Shown here: positions 859-56,826 of the stretch, piece after piece | Numbering within the stretch: position 1 is the first letter of the stretch | How the letters are laid out: each line of letters starts with the position of its first letter | Origin: Cohnella laeviribosi DSM 21336 | Lineage (GTDB): Bacteria > Bacillota > Bacilli > Paenibacillales > Paenibacillaceae | DNA: 64,000 bases | Assembly (NCBI RefSeq): GCF_000378425.1 | Contig: NZ_KB899821.1 | Span: 1-64,000 of the forward strand | Direction of reading: 5' to 3' | Notes under the pieces: generated by a model | Told to the model about the DNA's origin: nothing | The model's input: the letters and a program-made list of their open reading frames with translations, nothing else | Databases searched by the model: none | Translations under genes and position numbers: made by a program

Positions 859-1274
859 GCGGCTGGCGGCGATGTAGGGTACTGGGCGGACTTCTTGACG
901 GTTGAGCACCGCGGCTGGCGGCGATGTAGGGTACTGGGCGGACTTCTTGATGGTTAAGCACCGCGGCTGGCGGCGATGTAGGGTACTGGGCGGGCTTCTT
1001 GACGGTTGAGCACCGTGACTAGAGGCGATGTAGGGTACTGGGCGGACTACTTGATGGCTAAGCACCGCGACGGGCGGCGATGTAGGGTACTGGGCGGACT
1101 TCTTGACGGTTGAGCACCGCGGCTGGCGGCGATGTAGGGTACTGGGCGGACTTCTTGACGGTTGAGCACCGCGGCTGGCGGCGATGTAGGGTACTGGGCG
1201 GACTTCTTGATGGTTAAGCACCGCGGCTGGCGGCGATGTAGGGTACTGGGTGGGCTTCTTGACAGTTCTCCACC
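859..1274 (+). repeat. Eight-copy 52-bp tandem repeat array (locus 1)
   Basis: Units start at 869, 921, 973, 1025, 1077, 1129, 1181 and 1233, an exact 52-bp period. The constant core begins GCGATGTAGGGTACTGGGCG, followed by a more variable part ending GAGCACCGCGGCTGG. Because 52 is not a multiple of three, reading frame rotates from unit to unit, which argues against a coding repeat. There are no unique spacers, so it is not a CRISPR array. The same unit recurs inverted at 47718-47918 and in decayed form at 30204-30276. Confidence 0.95.
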
Positions 1275-1684: not shown

Positions 1685-1728
1685 AAAAAGCCACCGCCCC
1701 CAGCCGAAACCGGCCGGAGACGATGGCT
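1685..1728 (-). terminator. Terminator of the infC-rpmI-rplT operon
   Basis: On the minus strand an imperfect GC-rich hairpin (outer arms AGCCATCG and CGGTGGCT, inner CCGG/CCGG type pairs) is followed by TTTTTGTG. It sits about 30 bp past the rplT stop codon. Confidence 0.6.
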
Positions 1729-1755
1729 CTCCAAGCGAAAAAGAATCGCGCGCGA

Positions 1756-14915: not shown

Positions 14916-15175
14916 CCGCTCATCCGGTCCGGCGGCCCGGATGCCTAATTTTATTGCTTTTTCGGCAATTAAATCGGGGAGACGCACGAAAACGGGCTTT
15001 GCAGTTGCTTTTATAGCAACTGCAGCCCCGCTCATCCGGTCTGGCGGGCCGTCTCCCCGATTTTATTGCTTTTTCGGCAATTAAATCGGGGAGACGGGCG
15101 AAAACGGGCTTTGCAGTTGCTTTTATAGCAGCTGCAGCCCCGCTCATCCGGTCCGGCGGCCCGGATGCTTCTAAG
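14916..15175. repeat. 112-bp direct repeats with long internal hairpins
   Basis: Copies start at 14916 and 15028, with a partial third at 15140, an exact 112-bp period. Each contains an 8-bp hairpin GCAGTTGC/GCAACTGC and half of a 21-bp near-perfect inverted repeat (15049-15069 with 15077-15097, CCGTCTCCCCG...CGGGGAGACGG). The repeats lie between the converging moaB and aldo/keto reductase genes. They have no coding potential and may be a multiplied terminator or the remnant of a small mobile element. Confidence 0.9.
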
Positions 15176-16300: not shown

Positions 16301-18058
16301 TTACACCGCTCCGGATTTCGCCGGAAGACTCTTCTCCGCGCGCTCAGGCAGCGCAAACAGCTGCGGCGGACCGTCCTCCCCGCCGTACAGGACCACGAGC
16401 AGCGTGCCGTTCCTCCGGTCGATCCGCTTCTCCTCCGACCAGACCGCATAATCGAACGGAAGATGCTCCAAAACCGCTTTTTTGGCCAGTTCCCGTTGAT
16501 CCATGCCCAAAAGCTCCGCCGCCTTCTTCAGCGCTGAGGACCATGCTTCCTTGTCCAACCGGTTCTCCCACCAGATTTTGCGGGGTTTGTATTTGTGCTG
16601 GAGGAAATAATCGATTTTGAGCAATCCCAGCGTCGCTTCGCGGTCCAAAGCGGGATTGTCGTCGTCCTTCAGAAACGACCACAGGCGCAGGAACAGGTCC
16701 TCCAGCTGATGGCCGATCCGCTGCCAGCCGCGCGCCTCCCAATAATCCCCAAACCGCTGAAAAAAGTCAAAAGGAGACGGGTAGGTCTGTCCGATCAAAT
16801 ACTCGATCGTGCGGTCCATCCGGTGCGCATTCCAGTATTTCTCCAGCACGTCCTCCACCCGTTTGATCCGGACGATGTCGGAGAACGGCAGGATGTCGTT
16901 GCCCAATATCTCGTACGGCGCGCGATCCATGTAGACGTAACCGTATTTTTCCGCGTCGATCCTTAGCCCGGTGCCGCGCAGCATTTTCAAGAATCCGAGC
17001 TGCAGTTCCTCCGGCCGGAGCGCGAATACGTCGTTAAACGTTTTGCGGAACGTGTCATAGTCCTCGTGCGGAAGTCCGGCGATCAGGTCGAGGTGCTGGG
17101 CGATTTTGCCGCTTTCCTTCACCTTCGTCACCGTGCGCACGAGCTTGGACCAGTTTTGCCGGCGCTTGACGGCCAGATTGGTCGGATCGTTCGTCGACTG
17201 CACCCCGATCTCGAAGCGGAAGATGCCGGGCGGGGCATGCTCCGCAAGAAAATCGAGCACCTCCGGACGCATGATGTCGGCGGTAATCTCGAATTGGAAC
17301 ACGCATCCGTTGTGGTGGTCGATCAGAAACCGGAATATCTCCATCGCATAGTCGCGCTTGATGTTGAATGTTCGGTCCACGAACTTGATCAGCTTCGCCC
17401 CGTTCTCGATCAGGTACAGCAAATCGGACTTGACTTTTTCGATATCGAAATAGCGTACGCCCACCTCAATGCTGGAAAGACAAAATTGGCAGCTGAACGG
17501 ACAGCCGCGGCTCGTCTCGAAATACACGATGCGGTTGCCGAGCGAAGGCAAATCCTCGGGAAAACGGTGCGGCGAAGGCAGCGCGTTCAAATCGAGCTTC
17601 GGACGGCCCGGGTTGATGACCACCTCGCCGTCTTTGCGGTACGCGAGCCCGAACACGAAGTGAAACTTCCGGTCGCCCGACAGCTCCCGCAGCAGATCGC
17701 GCAGCGTCTCCTCGCCCTCTCCCATGACGATAAAATCGACGGCCGGAAGCCTCCGCATCCAGTAATCGGTGTCGTAAGAGACTTCCGGACCGCCGAGCAC
17801 GATCGCGACATCGGGCAGCACTTTGCGAAGCATGTCGATAACCGTGATCGTCTCTTCGATATTCCAAATATAGCAGGAGAAGCCGATCACGTCGGGCTTC
17901 CGGCTGTACAGATCGGAGACGATCGCCATCGGCGGGTCTTTGATCGTATATTCGGCGAGCCCGATATCGAATTCGTCCTGGCAGTAGGCTTTGAGCACCC
18001 GCAGGGCCAGGGAAGTATGAATATATTTGGCGTTCAGCGTCGCCAGCACGACGTTCAT
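16301..18058 (-). CDS. B12-binding domain radical SAM protein with DUF4080-type tail
   Basis: A 585-residue protein. Residues 1-125 form a cobalamin-binding-like Rossmann domain (VIGFSCYIWNIEET, IVLGGPEVS, VMGEGEETL). Residues 175-400 are the radical SAM barrel with C186, C190 and C193 in CPFSCQFC. The remaining 180 residues match the extension often called DUF4080. Such proteins are widespread and mostly uncharacterised; methylation or rearrangement chemistry is possible. The N-terminal domain has no visible DxHxxG, so base-off B12 binding is not assured. It is transcribed alone or with the aldo/keto reductase gene. Confidence 0.9.
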   Translation of the reverse strand: MNVVLATLNAKYIHTSLALRVLKAYCQDEFDIGLAEYTIKDPPMAIVSDLYSRKPDVIGFSCYIWNIEETITVIDMLRKVLPDVAIVLGGPEVSYDTDYWMRRLPAVDFIVMGEGEETLRDLLRELSGDRKFHFVFGLAYRKDGEVVINPGRPKLDLNALPSPHRFPEDLPSLGNRIVYFETSRGCPFSCQFCLSSIEVGVRYFDIEKVKSDLLYLIENGAKLIKFVDRTFNIKRDYAMEIFRFLIDHHNGCVFQFEITADIMRPEVLDFLAEHAPPGIFRFEIGVQSTNDPTNLAVKRRQNWSKLVRTVTKVKESGKIAQHLDLIAGLPHEDYDTFRKTFNDVFALRPEELQLGFLKMLRGTGLRIDAEKYGYVYMDRAPYEILGNDILPFSDIVRIKRVEDVLEKYWNAHRMDRTIEYLIGQTYPSPFDFFQRFGDYWEARGWQRIGHQLEDLFLRLWSFLKDDDNPALDREATLGLLKIDYFLQHKYKPRKIWWENRLDKEAWSSALKKAAELLGMDQRELAKKAVLEHLPFDYAVWSEEKRIDRRNGTLLVVLYGGEDGPPQLFALPERAEKSLPAKSGAV

Positions 18059-18160
18059 ATCACGTTACCCTCTTTTCAAGAGATGCGTTTTCTCTATTGT
18101 AACGGATAACGGGGCGGATAACCAAGAAACGCCGCCGGCCGCCCTTCTCCTGCGCCGAAA

Positions 18161-19507
18161 TCAAACCTCCAAACCGCCGCTTGCGATCACGTCCCGGATG
18201 AAATAATAGCTGTCTTTCGGATGGCGCTCCAGCGTGTTGTAATCGGTGTAAACGATGCCGAAACGCTTGCGGTACCCTTCCGCCCATTCGAAGTTGTCGA
18301 GCAGGGACCAGGCAAAATAGCCTTTGAGCGGCACGCCGGATTCGATCAGACGATGGCACTGGATGAAGTGCTTGCGGAAATAATCGATACGCTTCGCGTC
18401 GTGCACCCGTTTGTCTTCGGTGAGCTCGTCCTCGTAGCAGGCGCCGTTCTCGGTAATGTAGATCGGCGTGTCCCCGTACTCCTCCCGCACCCAGGACAGC
18501 ACCTTGTACAGCCCGTCCGGATAGACGTTCCAATCCATAAACGTCTTGTCGAAGCCGATCTGCACCTCTTCCCCGTCGAACAAGCCTGCGCCCTGCTTGT
18601 AGCGGCCGAAACCTCCGCTGTAGTAGTTCACGCCGATGAAATCGATCGGCTGGGCAATCGTCTCCATATCGCCCGCCCGAATCGGAATTTCGGCGCCTTT
18701 GGCCCGGAACCAGTCGACCATAAACGCGGGATACGTGCCTTTGAACGTCGGCTCCATAAACCATTCGTTGTTCCATGCCCGCATCCGCCGCGCCGCTTCC
18801 ACGTCTTCCTTGCGCGTCGAATAGGGCTCGATCCAGTTCAGGTTGTGCGTCGTGCCGATTTCGCCCCGGATGCCGAGGGCGCGGAACTTCTTCACCGCCT
18901 CGCCGTGCGCGACCAGGCAGTGATGGGCGACCTTGACGGCAAGTCCGAGATCCGTATAGCCGGGAGCGTGCACGCCCAAATAGTTCGAGAGGAACGAGAC
19001 GCACCACGTTTCGTTGAACGTGATCCACTGTTTCACTTTCCCGTCGAACGCTTTGAACACCGTCTCCGCATAGTTTACGAACGCGTCGATCGTTTCCCGG
19101 TTCGCCCAGCCTCCCTTGTCCTGAAGCGCCTGCGGCAAATCCCAGTGGTACAGCGTCACGCACGGCTCAATGCCGGACGCGATCAGCGCGTCGAGGACCC
19201 GATGGTAATAATCGAGCCCTTCCGGGTTGACTTGGCCCGTCCCTTTCGGAAAAATGCGGGGCCAGGCGATCGAGAACCGGTACGCATTAACGCCCAGCTT
19301 CTTAAGCAGCGCGACATCCTCCTCGTAGCGGTGGTAGCTGTCGCAAGCCACATCGCCGTTGTCGTTGTTCGCCACTTTGCCCGGCGTATGCGAAAAGGTG
19401 TCCCAGATCGAAGGTCCTCTTCCCCCTTCGCGTACCGCCCCTTCGATTTGGTAGGACGCCGTCGCAGTCCCCCATACGAAATCGCTTGGAAAAACCAGTT
19501 TTGCCAC
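18161..19507 (-). CDS. GH1 beta-glucosidase
   Basis: A 448-residue family 1 glycoside hydrolase, the usual length. The acid/base Glu166 is in WITFNETW, with Thr where most members have Pro. The nucleophile Glu353 is in IYITENGA. Sugar-contact residues Q20, H121 and W122 (TLYHWDLPQ) are present. It lacks a signal peptide, so it acts in the cytoplasm on imported cellobiose-like beta-glucosides. A catabolite-response-like element overlaps its upstream region at 19525-19539. No transporter is adjacent. Confidence 0.95.
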   Translation of the reverse strand: MAKLVFPSDFVWGTATASYQIEGAVREGGRGPSIWDTFSHTPGKVANNDNGDVACDSYHRYEEDVALLKKLGVNAYRFSIAWPRIFPKGTGQVNPEGLDYYHRVLDALIASGIEPCVTLYHWDLPQALQDKGGWANRETIDAFVNYAETVFKAFDGKVKQWITFNETWCVSFLSNYLGVHAPGYTDLGLAVKVAHHCLVAHGEAVKKFRALGIRGEIGTTHNLNWIEPYSTRKEDVEAARRMRAWNNEWFMEPTFKGTYPAFMVDWFRAKGAEIPIRAGDMETIAQPIDFIGVNYYSGGFGRYKQGAGLFDGEEVQIGFDKTFMDWNVYPDGLYKVLSWVREEYGDTPIYITENGACYEDELTEDKRVHDAKRIDYFRKHFIQCHRLIESGVPLKGYFAWSLLDNFEWAEGYRKRFGIVYTDYNTLERHPKDSYYFIRDVIASGGLEV

Positions 19508-47717: not shown

Positions 47718-47918
47718 ACTCCGCCAAACGCGGGATGTAATCCGCCCAGTACCCTACATCGCCTACAGTCGCAATCCTCCACCGCCATGTAGTCCGCCCA
47801 GTACCCTACATCGCTCACAGCCTCGGTGCTCCACCGCCATGTAGTCCGCCCAGTACCCTACATCGCCTACAGCCGCGATGCTCCGCCGCCATGTAGTCCG
47901 CCTAGTACCCTACATCGC
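47718..47918 (-). repeat. Four-copy 52-bp tandem repeat array (locus 2)
   Basis: Units end at 47762, 47814, 47866 and 47918, an exact 52-bp period. Reverse-complemented they read GCGATGTAGGGTACTGGGCG followed by GACTACATGGCGGTGGAGCA, the same core as locus 1 with a variant second half. The array lies between the GH43 terminator and the leader of the binding-protein operon, in an otherwise gene-free 500 bp. Confidence 0.93.
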
Positions 47919-55347: not shown

Positions 55348-56826
55348 TTAATCCCGGTTAAAAGACTCGCCGATTCGCCTCAAAGCCTCCCGGTAGACGG
55401 TTTGAAGCGGCACGCCGTGAAGCCTTGCGGCTTGGGCGGCATCTTCGAATTCCGGCGAAGCCTGGACCAGCTCTCCGTTCTCGTAGCCCAGCTTGACGCG
55501 GACCCGGCCGTAGGGCGTCTCGACCGTCTGCCATTTGCGGTCCAGCATGCGGCGCGTTCGTTCGCTTCTGCGGACGCCGAAGGTGGATGTCTCGGCAAGC
55601 AGCGTCGCTTCGCAGGCCGCCGCGTCCTCAGGCAGGCAAACGACGGTCGCAAGCACGCCCGGACGGTTTTTCTTCATATATACCGGCGTGTAATATACGT
55701 CGAGCGCGCCGGATGCAAGCAGGCGCTCCATCGCATAGCCCATCGTTTCGCCGCTCGAATCGTCGATTTGCGCTTCCAGCACGACGACCCGCTCTCCCGG
55801 CGCGGACGGAAGCTCGCGATGGAGCAGAATCGCCCGGAGCACATTCGGGAATTCGAAGTCCTTGTTCCCGGCTCCATAGCCGATGCGGTCGATCGTCCCT
55901 TCGGGAATCGGTCCGAAGCCGGAAGCGAGCGCCTTCGCGATGCCCGCGCCGGTCGGCGTCGTCAGCTCGGCGTTGGCCGGCATCGACGCCAGCGGAATGC
56001 CGCGCAGAAGCTCGGCCGTAGCCGGAGCCGGAACCGGGTACAGCCCGTGCGCGATCCGCACCTTGCCCATGCCGGTCGGAATCGGGGAGACGACGATGTC
56101 GTCGACGCCCAGATTCTCGAGCGCCAGGCAAACGCCGATGATGTCGATAATCGAGTCCATCGCTCCGACTTCATGGAAATGGACCTCCGACGGCGCGATG
56201 CCGTGGATTTTCCCCTCCGCCTCGGCAATCCGTTCGAACACCTTCGCGCTGCGCTCCTTCACGCGGGCCGGCAGGTCGGAGGCCTCGATCATGGCGAGAA
56301 TATCCGCCGCTTTGCGATGCTCGTGGTGATGATCATGCTCGTGGCCGTGCGAATGCGGGTGGCCATGCGTATGTGCGTGCCCATGGCCGTGCTCGTGATC
56401 GTGCTGGTGCGCGCGAGCGTGGTCATGCGCGTGAGGGTGTTCATGCGCGTGAGGGTGTTCATGCGCGTGAGGGTGTTCATGCGTATGCGCGTGATCGTGC
56501 ACATGAAGATGATCGTGGCTCGGATGCGCATGACCGCGCTCGTGCCGGCCTTGTTCGGACTCGCGCCGATGGACGTGCCCTTCCGCGTGCCCTTGGGGGG
56601 TATCGCGTTCCGGGAACGTCAGCTTGAGCAGTTTGGCGGAAATTCCCCGGCGGACGGTCGGCACGAACGCCATCCGGAACGGGTCGAGCGGCAGCCGCCG
56701 CAGCTCCGACTCGATATAGGCCGGATCGGCGCCCAAATCGACGAGCGCCGCCAGCGTCATGTCCCCGGCGATGCCGGAGAAGCAGTCCAGATACAAGGTT
56801 TTGCGTATTTTCTTCGCTTCGGTCAT
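55348..56826 (-). CDS. larC: Nickel-pincer cofactor nickel insertase LarC (single frame)
   Basis: A 492-residue LarC, which inserts nickel into the pyridinium dithiocarboxylate cofactor in a CTP-dependent way. Start at 56826 after GGAGG; it overlaps larB by 4 bp. YLDCFSGIAGDM opens the protein; HFHEVGAMDSIIDIIG, TPTGAGIAKALA and DDSSGETMGYAMERLL are family motifs. In Lactobacillus plantarum larC is split by a frameshift; here it is one frame. Residues about 80-172 form a very large His-rich loop (HEHPHAHEHPHAHEHPHAHD type), likely a nickel store. Confidence 0.95.
   Translation of the reverse strand: MTEAKKIRKTLYLDCFSGIAGDMTLAALVDLGADPAYIESELRRLPLDPFRMAFVPTVRRGISAKLLKLTFPERDTPQGHAEGHVHRRESEQGRHERGHAHPSHDHLHVHDHAHTHEHPHAHEHPHAHEHPHAHDHARAHQHDHEHGHGHAHTHGHPHSHGHEHDHHHEHRKAADILAMIEASDLPARVKERSAKVFERIAEAEGKIHGIAPSEVHFHEVGAMDSIIDIIGVCLALENLGVDDIVVSPIPTGMGKVRIAHGLYPVPAPATAELLRGIPLASMPANAELTTPTGAGIAKALASGFGPIPEGTIDRIGYGAGNKDFEFPNVLRAILLHRELPSAPGERVVVLEAQIDDSSGETMGYAMERLLASGALDVYYTPVYMKKNRPGVLATVVCLPEDAAACEATLLAETSTFGVRRSERTRRMLDRKWQTVETPYGRVRVKLGYENGELVQASPEFEDAAQAARLHGVPLQTVYREALRRIGESFNRD
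56424..56477. repeat. 18-bp tandem repeat inside the larC His-rich loop
   Basis: Three exact copies of CATGCGCGTGAGGGTGTT lie head to tail. On the coding strand each adds a six-residue unit of the form EHPHAH, so the loop can grow or shrink in frame by slippage. Confidence 0.9.

Follow-up and report, generated by a model that had tools for sequence, protein, structure and literature searches.

An intergenic 52-bp tandem array behind rplT in Cohnella laeviribosi and its probable place among the constant-length satellites of Bacillota

What kind of element is the tandem array that lies behind rplT near the start of contig NZ_KB899821.1 of Cohnella laeviribosi DSM 21336, and does its unit length relate it to repeats already described? 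Within the 64,000-bp stretch analyzed here (the window), direct reading places eight 52-bp units without indels at positions 859–1274 (plus strand, which denotes repeat orientation and not transcription). The same array is recovered by a unit scan and by TRF (859–1267, period 52, 7.9 copies, 91% matches, 0% indels, score 692). Unit 1 has the same sequence as unit 6, and unit 2 the same as unit 7; a G at unit position 32 is common to units 3 and 8 only. Units 6–8 (1119–1274, plus strand) are therefore a copy of units 1–3 (859–1014, plus strand), shifted by 260 bp through a duplication of five units. The array otherwise differs by point changes, and the differences of the eighth unit are concentrated in its final part. 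This history replaces the shuffling of sub-variants proposed in an earlier interpretation made without database searches (the sequence-only reading). The core of the first unit (872–896, plus strand), with the half-sites ATGTAG (872–877) and CTTCTT (891–896), falls in the stretch that is best conserved by per-position information content across 166 units of the family.

The array is intergenic. Gene calls made with the arrays masked put it 489 bp past rplT, with 211 bp between it and the following called gene. Its upstream neighbor on the minus strand is rplT, which encodes ribosomal protein L20 (1756–2115; Pfam PF00453 on 1759–2115), and the next feature downstream on that strand is a small ORF of 90 aa without a Pfam match (319–591; 319–648 by the gene caller). 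A hairpin resembling an intrinsic terminator (1687–1730, minus strand) follows infC-rpmI-rplT, and the array sits past it; the scan that detected this hairpin returned four such sites, versus 1.6 in shuffled sequence. At the left window edge, Rfam identifies a group II intron domain (RF02001, 5–175, minus strand, 123.8 bits).

A 170-aa minus-strand frame (826–1338) spans the array. Frames are open throughout 7 of the 25 N-free TRF arrays of the same genome, below the 0.40 found for random tiled 52-mers, so the open frame is no sign of coding; 52 is also not a multiple of three. We accordingly rejected a coding function for the 52-bp family. The gene caller, a home-made hexamer program, cannot call arrays coding because they were masked. 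When the mask was lifted, 6 of the 35 arrays sampled from congeners (see below), all of period 51, lay under coding-like frames and may be coding. Earlier unmasked runs had placed frames over 2 of 25 arrays in the own genome, 5 of 19 in the congener G035 and 5 of 13 sampled arrays. The best of the six, L173 in G010, is a 51-bp array (17678–18146) under a coding-like frame at 17525–18376 (plus strand), possibly a 17-residue protein repeat. Elsewhere in the window, TRF reports an 18/36-bp tandem repeat at 56390–56483, a multiple of three and possibly coding.

Two further identities were rejected. The array is not a CRISPR, since the entire 52-bp unit repeats without unrelated spacers. For a phage, plasmid or viral origin, the window array was unmatched in phages and plasmids, and the exact core patterns had no match in viral contigs or in GTDB-220 genome contigs, a collection from which the own and very near genomes may be absent. 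The best IF-3 matches on plasmid records come from Anoxybacillus, Paenibacillus and Listeria, at 62.7–63.3%, and point to Bacillota.

The whole-genome search for the core that had been suggested beforehand places the family at many loci. BLAST with the window array gives 45 matches in the 4.48 Mb of the own genome (G000), and the 19-bp core, with up to 3 mismatches, occurs there 106 times, against 0 occurrences for the pattern read backward; chance can therefore be set aside. A position-weight scan covering the window and 34 of the 36 fetched stretches (L017–L050; L051 and L052 repeat parts of the window and were excluded) finds 166 units at 36 places, and none with the reversed control. These numbers describe only the family retrieved by similarity to the window array, and units with indels at array edges fall beneath the detection of the scan. 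One of the places is a second array in the window (47735–47918, minus strand, 3.5 copies), found by TRF, BLAST and the unit scan. The arrays are dispersed and their period is exact: 125 of 130 spacings between neighboring scored units equal 52, and the other 5 cross runs of N. Conservation is highest at unit positions 14–43, with half-sites AWGWAG and CTWCWT. In individual units, ATGTAG or AAGAAG at positions 14–19 is combined with CTACAT, CTACTT or CTTCTT at positions 33–38. AAGAAG with CTACAT is the commonest combination, and AAGAAG with CTTCTT, which could pair, occurs in no single unit.

Many of these copies are included in a composite repeat of about 0.6 kb. By eye, a shared left flank is recognizable at roughly 16 of the 36 places, the two window arrays not being among them. 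When one complete element is used to search the genome, a left module (about 240 bp) turns up at 22 places; one is the query itself, the remaining 21 show 75–88% identity, and some lack a 52-bp array. A right module, which reaches 200 bp, is present at about 15 places and is short at several. The composite element has no match in 36 congeners. In the left module, TTGGA...TCCAA palindromes are spaced by 50–51 bp (once 66), then 61.5–63.5, then 86–95.5 bp; a meaning of this spacing is suggestive at most, because the copies duplicate one another.

Judged by sequence likeness, the family is common to G000, G035 and G015, that is, to two other species of the genus, and absence from all relatives was the outcome that the sequence-only reading had named as speaking against it. 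With up to 3 mismatches, a degenerate core is found 186 times in G000, 387 times in G035 (a few counted twice, as a contig end repeats its start and L108 equals L093) and 45 times in G015. The remaining 34 genomes in the genus yield 0–2 hits, like the backward control, and the two hits in G001 are 51-bp arrays of a different palindrome. At up to 1 mismatch, the core is present in 3 of 392 genomes drawn from the order (G000, G015 and, at a single site, G374), a draw that did not include G035. Palindromes, for example GTAGTGCACCGGGTGCACTAC or AGTCGACTAGATCGACT, make up many of the cores in G035, G015 and G001; the spacers there are specific to each array, and the period is 51 or 52. Half-sites are common to three species, whereas the spacers differ. 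Two loci of G035 show additional repeats: at L099 (1758–2380), CRISPR-like 65–67-bp repeats with GTTTCAATCCACGC follow a 52-bp array at a distance of a few hundred bp, and at L100 (841–1177), AATAACGGCC...GGCCGTTATT palindromes at 52-bp spacing with alternating spacers are followed by the adjoining GTAG family.

Unit length is conserved far more widely than sequence. Stretches totaling 1.6 Mb were sampled at preset coordinates from 16 congeneric species; of the 56 tandem arrays in them whose period is at least 20 bp, 35 have units of 50–52 bp, and their sequences are mostly unrelated to that of the window array. The first forty stretches (20 kb each), drawn from 15 other congeners, contain 20 arrays, 13 of them at 51–52 bp; the second forty, from nine species including G035, contain 36, 22 of them at 50–52 bp. 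Arrays occur in 8 of the 15 and 8 of the 9 species, respectively. In fragmented genomes the sampled contigs are those known from earlier matches, though the coordinates were preset, and 5 of the second forty stretches come from the array-rich G035, contributing 2 of the 22 arrays. Between palindrome centers of the first sample, 31 neighbors are 51 bp apart, and no other distance between 30 and 80 bp occurs more than 3 times. Since length is kept across arrays and species and sequence is not, length is the shared property. Beyond the genus, 20 stretches from other families of the order (364 kb) hold one palindromic 52-bp array (L201) and a single weak repeat of 53 bp, the two of them in G042, and 20 from other genera of the family (361 kb) hold a 103-bp array, twice 51.5, in G162 (L217). 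Several species have 51-bp arrays (L150, L244, L256, L257 and L265) in which dyads resembling ATAACGGC...GCCGTTAT are found again, so the array families are not wholly unrelated.

Subirana and Messeguer reportedly described 52-nt satellites in a J Bacteriol paper of 2020. A later paper (Subirana and Messeguer 2021, IJMS, PMC8161180) presents repeats of constant 52-nt size in Bacillus and other Firmicutes, with variable, species-specific sequence and several families per genome, and states that they are particularly abundant in Paenibacillus. Their units contain short signals, often with the reverse in one repeat, and nucleoid proteins or small RNAs are the suggested roles (PMC8161180). The window array very probably belongs to this constant-length (51–52 bp), non-coding satellite class of Bacillota: for a class of 51–53-bp units in at least four copies, it has 52 bp and 7.9 copies, it is non-coding, units of its family carry short signals and their reverse (positions 14–19 and 33–38), and the sampled arrays keep their length as their sequences differ. 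The published satellites also agree with ours in being mostly present in 4–10 copies, dispersed, and represented by unrelated families within a genome (PMC8161180). The cases differ in that here one family spans three species (G000, G035 and G015), is partly embedded in the composite element of G000, and has had its placement relative to genes measured. The array is an added member of the published class and not a new class. The sequence-only reading was thus right about the tandem 52-bp units with point differences, their intergenic position downstream of the rplT terminator, and their being neither CRISPR nor coding, and wrong in regarding the repeat class as unrecognized, as it did in proposing shuffling.

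In congeners, the arrays prefer the 3′ ends of genes and convergent gaps. The 33 sampled arrays that are flanked by called genes at either end (two of them share a gap) occupy 12 convergent and 20 tandem gaps and no divergent one, versus 52, 239 and 105 among background gaps of at least 150 bp in the same stretches (Fisher p = 1.4e-4 for divergent and 9e-4 for convergent). When the six arrays under coding-like frames are left out, the counts are 9, 17 and 0. Eighteen of 21 sampled tandem arrays are closer to the 3′ end of the upstream gene, and 17 of the 21 start 13–120 bp after a stop codon. Among 17 arrays of G035, which were chosen by similarity, 11 are convergent, 5 tandem and 1 divergent, or 10, 4 and 1 once the L093/L108 duplicate and the shared L100 gap are removed. 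In the own genome, the preference is not significant against background (of 20 arrays, 4 are convergent, 12 tandem and 4 divergent, and a single gap, L033, accounts for two of the last). The gene-end placement may be new relative to the published class, because the words "intergenic", "palindrom" and "Cohnella" are absent from PMC8161180.

The half-sites form dyads, to a degree that varies between arrays. For 17 of 35 sampled arrays, the dyad score was matched by at most 2 of 40 shuffles, and the other 18 have no clear dyad. Own-genome units show little dyad with loops of up to 8; the score of the window array was matched by 45 of 60 shuffles, and among the own arrays tested only L017 and the second window array were matched by at most 3 of 60. 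Among 92 distinct cores from 16 arrays of G035, G015 and G001, and with relatedness uncontrolled, 3 of 11 arm pairs (7, 8 and 9) covary: their Watson–Crick fractions of.68,.97 and.88, versus.50,.79 and.72 in shuffles, were reached by 0 of 500. Arm pair 2, conversely, pairs below chance (0.30 vs 0.50). A TARY foot, a motif picked post hoc after the sequences had been inspected, is found in 10 of 35 arrays versus 18 of 700 shuffles, and the TARY...RYTA foot recurs in the genus.

That a length should be fixed to about one base in repeats of free sequence is difficult to account for unless some ruler acts, be it a DNA-bound protein or a duplication enzyme. The best explanation as a whole, to which we assign a probability of roughly 0.45, combines membership in the satellite class with phased, protein-bound half-sites at the ends of transcription units. 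Its mechanistic part, the binding of these half-sites by an oligomerizing protein, is a tentative proposal that we hold at somewhat less than even odds. The 52-bp period would correspond to five turns of B-DNA and place successive sites on one face of the helix, where the array could be coated by a dimeric DNA-binding protein that associates with itself, or alternatively by a topoisomerase or a nucleoid protein; the coated array might then mark or insulate the end of a transcription unit. Gyrase or IHF are said to act likewise on BIMEs. Selection would maintain the half-sites and their spacing, while slippage and unequal crossing-over would homogenize the units and let spacer sequences drift between arrays and species. 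The five turns may be a coincidence, because other periods (41, 43, 45, 46 and 62) show no clustering at whole turns of the helix and do not support these as a general rule. It is conceivable, if unlikely, that the arrays are transcription-unit boundary elements read by a polymerizing DNA-binding protein that needs dyads exactly five helical turns apart, with a sequence preference that drifts by lineage and a spacing rule that stays; if true, this would account for satellites in Bacillota whose length is constant and whose sequence varies. The 52-nt satellites are already in print, and gene-end placement in congeners together with the dyads makes their function experimentally addressable.

An action at the RNA level is somewhat unlikely. 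The arrays would here be transcribed within 3′ UTRs as strings of hairpins protecting mRNA ends, or serve as small RNAs or protein sponges, an idea put forward by Subirana and Messeguer (PMC8161180). The starts shortly after stop codons fit this explanation, as do the strong hairpins in arrays of several species and the transcription of 52-nt satellites reported for B. coagulans in PMC8625621 and PMC8161180. Arm mismatches give a mixed signal. In nine tandem arrays read on the sense strand, G.T exceeds A.C by 51 to 28 when counted by unit, as expected of an RNA stem and mainly through L095, L101 and L161, but by position the two are nearly even (15 versus 13), and the ratio depends on the array (12:1 in L095, 12:0 in L101, 1:11 in L100). 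Furthermore, no Rfam match at gathering score was obtained for the window array and the arrays of 10 loci, which argues against a known structured RNA; a base-exact period is unexpected for a string of RNA hairpins; and the window array lies past a terminator-like site. Because AAGAAG and CTTCTT never co-occur in own-genome units, and 16 sequences of the left module show no covariation backing an RNA fold, we lean tentatively toward DNA half-sites and away from an RNA stem.

It is quite unlikely that the arrays have no function and arise from a duplication process with a built-in ruler, such as fixed-length slippage or repair at palindromes, which makes 51–52-bp arrays in harmless places. The mostly unrelated sequences and the multi-unit duplications agree with such a process, and the absence from divergent gaps could reflect purging from promoters. 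On the other hand, half-sites are common to three species and spacers are not, and we know of no enzyme with such a length ruler.

REP/BIME elements of enterobacteria are palindromic units with a GTAG foot, in small clusters behind gene ends. The arrays share these four features and differ in their head-to-tail 52-bp period. Mobilization of such elements by a Y1 (RAYT-type) transposase is highly improbable here and was rejected: GTAG...CTAC feet, dispersal, gene-end position in congeners and the copies of the composite element speak for it, but the units are direct and head-to-tail, and Y1_Tnp, found in 12 of 37 genomes across the genus, does not correlate with the arrays and was not found in array-bearing G015 and G001. 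BOX elements of Streptococcus pneumoniae consist of a left module, a variable number of middle units and a right module. The composite element resembles them in layout only; its middle unit is 52 bp, and some arrays, those in the window among them, lack outer modules. MIRU-VNTR loci are likewise dispersed intergenic minisatellites of about 50 bp, from which the present arrays differ in their fixed length across unrelated sequences. Finally, the window contains a 112-bp direct repeat of 2.2 copies at 14916–15166 (TRF) that includes the palindrome GCAGTTGC...GCAACTGC and may represent a further family of interspersed palindromes; by eye, sequence resembling it also flanks the 52-bp array of L022.
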